Shown here piece after piece: positions 50,661 to 52,332 of a stretch of 64,000 nucleotides of DNA. The translations under genes and the position numbers were made by a program. Positions within the stretch are counted from its first letter, which is position 1. Each line of letters opens with the position of its first letter. Below the pieces are notes generated by a model, which saw only the letters and a list, made by a program, of their open reading frames with translations, was not told the DNA's origin and did not search any database. The stretch spans positions 3,286,001-3,350,000 of the forward strand of contig NZ_CP108484.1 of the NCBI RefSeq assembly GCF_036226505.1, in the 5' to 3' direction. This DNA comes from Kitasatospora sp. NBC_01246 (lineage in GTDB: Bacteria > Actinomycetota > Actinomycetes > Streptomycetales > Streptomycetaceae).

Positions 50661-51521
50661 ATGCCGGTCAAGTACACCCGTGAGCTGCTGGCCTCACTCG
50701 CCGCCGAGTCGACCAGCGTGAACGACATGATGCGCAGGCTCGGCGTGCCGATGGCGGGCGGCACCCACAGCTACCTCAGCAAGCGGCTGCGGCACTACGG
50801 GATCGACACCACGCACTTCAACGAGGGCCGCCCCGACTACGGGCGCCGCCGCTACCCGCGCGAAATCCTGGCCGAAGCCGCGGCCCACAGCGACAGCATC
50901 AACGCGATGATGGCCCACCTCGGCGTCACTCCGTACGACAGCCTCTACTCGTACCTGAAGCGGCGCTTGGTCGAATTCGGCATCGACACCACCCACTTCA
51001 CCTTCAGGGGCGACGGCCGCGACAGGGTCGGGGCCGTCGCCAAGGGCGCGCTGGAACACGCCGTGGCAGAACACCGCAGCCTCCGCGGCGTGATCCTCGC
51101 CCTGGGGATGGTCGACTGCGGCAGCTCCCGGACGCTGCTGCGGGAGAGCATCGCGTTCCACCGCCTCGACACCTCCCACTTCACCGGTCGGGCCCACAAC
51201 AAGGGCCGGAAGACCGGACCGCGACGCACGCCCGAGGACCTGCTCGTCCGACGCCCGCCGGGGAGTCAGCGAGTTCCGGGCGACCGCCTGCGGGCGATGC
51301 TCGTGCACATCGGGCACCCCGACGTCTGCGAGATGTGCGGCGCCCCGCCGACCTGGCTCGGACACCCCATGACCCTGGAGGTCGACCACATCAACGGCGA
51401 CTGGCTCGACAACAGGCGGGACAACCTCCGCCTGCTCTGCCCCAACTGTCACTCCATCACGCCGACCTACTGCGGCCGGAACAGGAACCGGGACACGCCG
51501 CCGGAGGCTGCCGCCGCGTAG
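50661..51521 (+). CDS. HNH endonuclease with three N-terminal repeats
   Basis: Protein of 286 residues. Three repeats of about 50-70 residues (from about 5, 68 and 128) each end in a (I/L)DT(T/S)HF motif and look like small HTH modules with an MMRRLGV-type helix. The C-terminal HNH domain has CEMCG, LEVDHINGDWLDNRRDNLRLL and CPNCHSIT, with the zinc cysteines intact. Such genes occur in phages and actinomycete chromosomes; the target is unknown. It lies directly upstream of the tRNA-Leu gene. Confidence 0.88.
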   Translation: MPVKYTRELLASLAAESTSVNDMMRRLGVPMAGGTHSYLSKRLRHYGIDTTHFNEGRPDYGRRRYPREILAEAAAHSDSINAMMAHLGVTPYDSLYSYLKRRLVEFGIDTTHFTFRGDGRDRVGAVAKGALEHAVAEHRSLRGVILALGMVDCGSSRTLLRESIAFHRLDTSHFTGRAHNKGRKTGPRRTPEDLLVRRPPGSQRVPGDRLRAMLVHIGHPDVCEMCGAPPTWLGHPMTLEVDHINGDWLDNRRDNLRLLCPNCHSITPTYCGRNRNRDTPPEAAAA

Positions 51522-51585
51522 GAGGACCCACCACCGGAAAAGGTGCGGCCTGCTGGACGGGGAGCCGGTAGGCTGGACCTGGCAT

Positions 51586-51660
51586 GCGCCCGTACTCCAG
51601 CTGGCTAGAGAGATACGGTTTAGGTCCGTAGTGTCGTGGGTTCGAGTCCCACCGGGCGTA
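51586..51660 (+). tRNA. tRNA-Leu (anticodon TAG), atypical class I form
   Basis: The acceptor GCGCCCG/CGGGCGT, the anticodon stem TACGG/CCGTA with loop TTTAGGT and the T arm GTGGG/CCCAC all pair. The anticodon is TAG with G37, which reads leucine CUA. The variable region is only five nucleotides (GTGTC), whereas normal tRNA-Leu has a long variable arm. The D stem has one mismatch. CCA is not encoded. Charging identity is therefore uncertain. Confidence 0.85.
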
Positions 51661-51669
51661 CCCAGCGAA

Positions 51670-51708
51670 ACGGCCCTCTCCCCTTCGAATCGAAGGCGAG
51701 AGGGCCGT
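51670..51708. terminator. Terminator between tRNA-Leu and rdgB
   Basis: ACGGCCCTCTC (51670-51680) pairs with GAGAGGGCCGT (51698-51708); the inner CCTTCG/CGAAGG extends the stem. It serves both convergent transcripts. Confidence 0.85.
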
Positions 51709-51726
51709 CGTCGTTCCCGCGGCTTC

Positions 51727-52332
51727 TCAGCCCAGCAGGTCCTTCAGGACCGGGGCCAGGGCGCGGAAGGCCTTGCCGCGGTGGCTGATGGCGTTCTTCT
51801 CCGCCGCCGTCAGTTCGGCGCAGGTGCGGGTCTCGCCCAGGGGCTCCAGGATCGGGTCGTAGCCGAAGCCGCCCTCGCCGGCCGGGGCCGTCCGCAGGGT
51901 GCCGAGGAGGCGGCCCTCGACGACGCGCTCGGTGCCGTCCGGCAGGGCCAGGGCGGCGGCGCAGAAGAAGTGGGCGCCGCGGTGCTCCGGGGCGATGTCG
52001 CCGAGCTGGGCCAGCAGCAGGTCCAGGTTGGCGCGGTCGTCGCCGTGCTTGCCGGCCCAGCGGGCGGAGAAGATGCCGGGGGCGCCGCCGAGGACGTCGA
52101 CGCAGAGGCCGGAGTCGTCGGCGACCGCGGGCAGGCCGGTGGCCTGCGCGAGGGCGTGTGCCTTGAGCAGCGAGTTCTCGGCGAAGGTGACGCCGGTCTC
52201 GCGGACGTCCGGGATCTCCGGGTAGGCATCGGCGCCGACCAGTTCGACGTCGATGCCGGCCTCGCCGAGGATGGCGCGGAGCTCGGCGACCTTGTTCCGG
52301 TTGCGGGTGGCGAGAATCAGACGGGTGGACAT
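51727..52332 (-). CDS. rdgB: RdgB/HAM1 family non-canonical purine NTP pyrophosphatase
   Basis: House-cleaning enzyme of 201 residues that hydrolyses dITP and XTP to monophosphates. LILATRNRNKVAELRAIL, GVTFAENSLLKAHA, AVADDSGLCVDVL, GEGGFGYDPI and ISHRGKAFRAL are all family motifs. It is near rph, as in other actinomycetes, separated here by a lipoprotein gene. Confidence 0.96.
   Translation of the reverse strand: MSTRLILATRNRNKVAELRAILGEAGIDVELVGADAYPEIPDVRETGVTFAENSLLKAHALAQATGLPAVADDSGLCVDVLGGAPGIFSARWAGKHGDDRANLDLLLAQLGDIAPEHRGAHFFCAAALALPDGTERVVEGRLLGTLRTAPAGEGGFGYDPILEPLGETRTCAELTAAEKNAISHRGKAFRALAPVLKDLLG

Follow-up and report, generated by a model that had tools for sequence, protein, structure and literature searches.

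The stretch of 64,000 nucleotides from Kitasatospora sp. NBC_01246 analysed here, referred to as the window, contains a tRNA gene with a UAG anticodon but no long variable arm, and the presence of a complete class I tRNA at this position is confirmed (Table 1). Very probably this gene gives rise to a functional class I tRNA-Leu that is the sole reader of CUA, represents one of two exchangeable alleles found beside rdgB, and belongs to a family shared with phages. A large bacterial group would then have a sole CUA-reading tRNA-Leu that lacks the long arm, with sister species retaining the arm at the same locus. The many swaps of a presumably essential tRNA between two structural classes, possibly with phage involvement, would also make it a rare case.

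Table 1. Features at the short tRNA-Leu(UAG) locus, numbered from the first base of the window.
Feature	Position	Strand	Evidence
HNH endonuclease gene, 286 aa, 64 bp upstream of the tRNA	50661..51521	+	Pfam HNH; PHROG 10822, E 2.2e-65
TAGGCT, sigma-70-like -10 box	51569..51574	+	Alignment of 22 Kitasatospora loci
Class I tRNA-Leu(UAG), positions 1-73	51586..51660	+	ARAGORN, Rfam, structural parse of 56 homologues
Anticodon TAG (UAG), reads CUA	51621..51623	+	Rfam and structural parse; UAG kept in 18/18 congeneric class I genes
Variable loop GTGTC, 5 nt	51631..51635	+	Structural parse and covariation; C48 covaries with G15
Strong hairpin just 3' of the tRNA	51670..51708	+	Folding and alignment of 22 loci
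Presumed rdgB/HAM1-like nucleotide pyrophosphatase gene	51727..52332	-	Conserved downstream flank

Structure of the short tRNA-Leu(UAG)

ARAGORN calls a tRNA-Leu(tag) at 51586-51660, and the match to Rfam family RF00005 spans exactly the same interval with 48.0 bits (E 3.6e-7, gathering score 29). Together with the length of the variable loop, these results bear out the original prediction of a class I form with a UAG anticodon and G37, which lies directly 3' of the anticodon. The acceptor stem pairs at 7/7 positions, including a G1-U72 wobble, the anticodon and T stems at 5/5 each, and A73 is present. A class II tRNA has a variable arm of at least 10 nt; here two perfect stems are only 5 nt apart, so that a long arm is impossible and a better alignment containing one has no room.

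All stems of the cloverleaf had been described as paired, and this holds for the acceptor, anticodon and T stems, but the D arm deviates slightly from the standard form. It has either three sure pairs with C13 facing A22/G21, or four pairs with a bulged A. Of the leucine determinants known from E. coli, A15-U48 and A20a, not all are present, the window copy having G15-C48 and an altered D loop. The gene does not encode CCA, the DNA at this point being A-CCC. Acceptor and T stems are of the normal 7/5 type and not the 8/4 or 9/3 of allo-tRNAs. As the minimum free energy fold of the unmodified RNA is not a cloverleaf (z -1.74), the structural case is built on the covariance model together with a comparison of homologues.

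Class I and class II genes alternate at the rdgB locus

Similarity and pattern searches of 70 congeners found one tRNA-Leu(UAG) gene in each, 18 of class I and 52 of class II, and never both; relaxed patterns served to locate the class II gene where the loop sequence differed. Kitasatospora sp. MBT63 (L155) has the same tRNA as the congener L069, and K. purpeofusca (L152) the same as L108, matches that assign the genus as Kitasatospora. In a wider sample of the family, 29/96 genomes with the TTTAGGT form were class I and again none had both classes, the named Streptomyces with class I including S. misionensis, S. fimicarius, S. glomeratus, S. albireticuli and S. regalis. The comparison across Streptomycetaceae proposed with the original prediction thus reveals a short UAG form that recurs as an alternative to the class II gene.

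Wherever flanks were read, genes of both classes sit between the HNH gene, if present, and the gene that we take to be rdgB, and it is at the rdgB flank that strains of the two classes become homologous again. On a tree of this neighbouring gene from 87 loci, 40 of them class I, parsimony gives 23 class changes, of which at least 10 are forced by strongly supported branches, a count that applies to this locus and not to the species tree because rdgB is adjacent and may itself be partly exchanged. Class labels are weakly clustered on the tree (7-14 of 500 shuffles were as low). Some sister strains, for example G001 and G016, have nearly equal rdgB genes but opposite classes. Identity in such pairs is about 90% as far as a point a few hundred bases upstream and returns to that level at about +130, and the block replaced comprises the HNH gene, promoter, tRNA and terminator. 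Class I and class II genes therefore look like alternative alleles that are swapped at the rdgB locus, the exchanged unit being a putative compact cassette of promoter box, tRNA and terminator, often with an HNH endonuclease gene.

Distribution in other families and in phages

The short UAG pattern was found in 41/395 genomes of the class, 30 of them in a second actinobacterial family (f17), 8 in the family of the window and one each in f14, f37 and f46. With a relaxed pattern, 34 of 40 f17 genomes were class I, 4 were class II and 2 were assigned to neither. By sequence scores over some 75 bases, the f17 class I type is nearest to the two Streptomycetaceae class I types and then to a Kitasatospora class II UAG gene, and class I may have arisen either through a deletion in a class II gene or from a different class I tRNA. 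The class I tRNA of S. regalis (L179) stands apart from the other Streptomyces class I genes read: its variable loop, ACAGT, is of the f17 type and its acceptor stem is GGGGCCG, which suggests that it was acquired from another family.

Short tRNA-Leu(UAG) genes are also present in Streptomyces phage Teutsch and its relatives, in mycobacteriophages Faith1 and DyoEdafos, in Gordonia phage GodonK and in Thermobifida phage P318. The Streptomyces-type pattern had no match in a viral contig collection. A plasmid origin was rejected, the plasmid matches being weak and of the kind that any tRNA gives. Teutsch carries a second class I-size tRNA-Leu(UAG), which precedes the first by about 140 bp and differs from it in the D arm (L232 2787-2862). 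A second short tRNA-Leu in GodonK (L372 2693-2767) has the anticodon CAA and likewise no long arm; class I tRNA-Leu in phages is thus not limited to UAG.

A comparison set of 56 distinct class I sequences was assembled from the two bacterial families, others and phages. It includes at least three sequence subtypes, and an unusual D-arm signature (C12 C13 A14 ... G21 A22 G23) occurs in 55/56, across the bacterial families and the phages. The class I form would accordingly be a member of a family that actinophages also carry.

The HNH endonuclease gene and movement of the cassette

A gene with an HNH domain lies beside the exchanged segment in the window, and a role of this HNH or of phages in moving the cassette is plausible. 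The window HNH protein is a possible mobile partner of the tRNA. In GodonK, an HNH gene starts 4 bp after the short tRNA and its product is 41.5% identical to the window HNH over 140 residues, and tblastn placed HNH genes directly beside the tRNA in L327-L329 (f17) and L314 (f14). The gene is missing at several class I loci and present beside many class II genes, and so does not determine the class.

HNH sequences at this site are variable, truncated or absent in relatives. Around the locus, the strains G015 (L101) and G017 (L102) are about 96-98% identical, apart from a difference of about 280 bp that lies immediately 5' of the tRNA, within the HNH region. In its N-terminal part, the protein predicted in the window has repeats that end in ...GIDTTHF-like motifs.

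Two accounts of how the switching arose have to be weighed, and they concern only the evolutionary part of the interpretation. Ordinary homologous recombination with no active part for HNH or phage, or independent losses of the arm, could well be responsible, at somewhat below an even chance. The flanking homology would permit simple gene replacement, and HNH is neither required for nor specific to class I; against plain recombination, HNH genes stand beside short tRNAs in Streptomycetaceae, f17, f14 and GodonK. Independent arm loss would be in keeping with the several class I subtypes, but the D-arm signature common to two bacterial families and phages argues for one family. Alternatively, a phage-borne mobile class I tRNA-Leu(UAG) may repeatedly have displaced a presumably essential class II gene with HNH as its homing partner, in a selfish or defence-driven cassette. 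This second account is offered tentatively, as a real possibility that falls short of being probable; if true, the cargo of such a cassette would be a housekeeping tRNA.

CUA is read as leucine

The genome (8.9 Mb in 3 contigs, rated 100% complete) yields 71 tRNA matches in a whole-genome Rfam search and ARAGORN. Its leucine tRNAs with anticodons CAA, CAG (two), GAG (two) and UAA are all class II, and the only other one is the class I UAG gene. The normal class II tRNA-Leu(UAG) that was to be sought elsewhere, or any second UAG copy, was absent from the genome in Rfam, ARAGORN and pattern searches. A relaxed pattern check of 23 genomes gave exactly one tRNA-Leu(UAG) match in each. The lowest score of any tRNA in the genome, 45.9 bits, belongs to a weak and divergent gene resembling tRNA-Glu(TTC) (G000:C1:6683769-6683837, L061).

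The window tRNA, which had been proposed as an adaptor for CUA, is the only candidate reader of that codon in the genome. That another tRNA reads CUA and the window RNA is purely regulatory is very improbable: CUA is very rare, as such a role might allow, but by wobble rules none of the other leucine anticodons is expected to read it, and every congener has retained exactly one UAG tRNA. The window tRNA would then be the only means by which the cell reads CUA as leucine.

The meaning of the codon was examined in one genome pair, by ORF prediction and blastp, using 800 kb of the genome containing the window and the corresponding 800 kb of a class II relative (G036). Of 24 CUA codons of the former in well-aligned context, 22 face leucine and 2 valine. 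After removal of two ORFs (a149 and a211) that look like wrong reading frames, the 12 differing sites opposite CUA are 5 CTC, 4 CTG, 1 CTT, 1 TTG and 1 GTA, leucine in 11/12, and a further 5 aligned sites are CUA in both genomes. CUA thus behaves like an ordinary leucine codon over the 12 informative sites of this pair. Its frequency in the first 400 kb of each genome is 0.48 per 1000 codons against 0.47 in the class II relative, and no avoidance of CUA is seen in the class I strain. The suggestion of a specialised or rarely used adaptor is right in that CUA is rare, but the codon is just as infrequent in the class II relative.

Charging with an amino acid other than leucine, also raised in the original prediction, finds no support, as CUA sites are conserved as leucine. 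A tRNA of changed identity, giving CUA a new or ambiguous meaning in class I strains, might be imagined from the class I form, the low similarity to any other tRNA-Leu of the genome and a 21-nt stretch of the T arm in common with a CAU tRNA. It is nonetheless highly unlikely, as the aligned sites face other leucine codons, CUA is not depleted, and the gene alternates with a class II tRNA-Leu between close relatives, where a changed meaning would be costly. Most likely, a class I tRNA-Leu has taken over CUA decoding.

Conservation and signs of function

Across the 56 class I sequences, the acceptor, D, anticodon and T stems are preserved by many two-sided, compensatory changes, and A73 is kept throughout. 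Positions 15 and 48 covary, with 28 G-C, 27 A-U and 1 G-U. A TA-containing -10-like box lies shortly 5' of the tRNA in 22/22 aligned Kitasatospora loci, and a strict sigma-70 consensus scan at the locus found no full promoter. The region from 51661 to 51720, 3' of the tRNA, folds with -36.4 kcal/mol (z -6.4), and a strong hairpin of differing sequence follows the tRNA in 22/22 Kitasatospora loci. A U-tract scan after the tRNA gave no match, and the hairpin is probably an intrinsic terminator of the kind that lacks a U tract. The tRNA would accordingly be made from its own small transcription unit. That it is a decaying relic no longer in use, as the non-standard D arm and the non-cloverleaf fold could hint, can be dismissed almost entirely, given that it is the sole UAG tRNA of the genome, that stems and the 15-48 pair are maintained by compensating changes, and that promoter box and terminator hairpin are conserved.

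Charging by leucyl-tRNA synthetase

Each of four genomes tested, which include both classes, has one leuS (962-997 aa open frame), and an altered or extra LeuRS was rejected as an explanation on these grounds. E. coli LeuRS reportedly charges a tRNA-Leu from which the anticodon and variable arms are missing, provided that A73 and the D-loop/T-loop contacts are retained (PMC9976931). The ordinary single LeuRS probably charges the window tRNA likewise, via A73 and the corner formed by the D and T loops, with the variable arm unneeded; the incomplete set of E. coli-type determinants counts against this. Sister species with class I and class II genes offer a natural test of what LeuRS needs.

Comparison with known systems

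Animal mitochondria are the only exception named to the rule that tRNA-Leu has a long arm (PMC9976931), and a short tRNA-Leu encoded in a bacterial genome contradicts the rule as so stated. Mitochondrial tRNA-Leu also lacks the long arm and is charged by LeuRS via A73 and A14 (PMC9976931), but is organellar, whereas the Kitasatospora case is bacterial and genomic.

The only earlier report found of a bacterial short-loop tRNA-Leu(TAG) concerns a tRNA cluster of Mycobacterium mucogenicum and a close relative (PMC6582537). That tRNA resembles the present one in having a short loop, the anticodon TAG, an HNH gene nearby in its cluster and a proposed phage origin. There, however, the short form supplements a normal class II gene, while in Kitasatospora the short form is the only copy and occupies a fixed housekeeping locus. 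No report of the short form as the only copy, or of alternation between class I and class II, was found in a literature search that covered few subscription journals.

The class II tRNA-Leu(UAG) of other Kitasatospora and Streptomyces shares with the class I gene the rdgB locus, the anticodon, A73 and the meaning of the codon, and the two are mutually exclusive. It is about 83-86 nt long, with a long variable arm, G9 and a D stem mostly of the G12-C23 type, and its promoter and terminator sequences are unlike those of class I. The tRNA-Leu(UAG) genes of the actinophages Teutsch, Faith1, DyoEdafos, GodonK and P318 are similar in length (74-76 nt), in anticodon and, mostly, in D-arm signature, but are located in phage genomes, mostly within tRNA arrays. 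The closest Streptomyces phage copy has 56/75 positions in common with the window gene.
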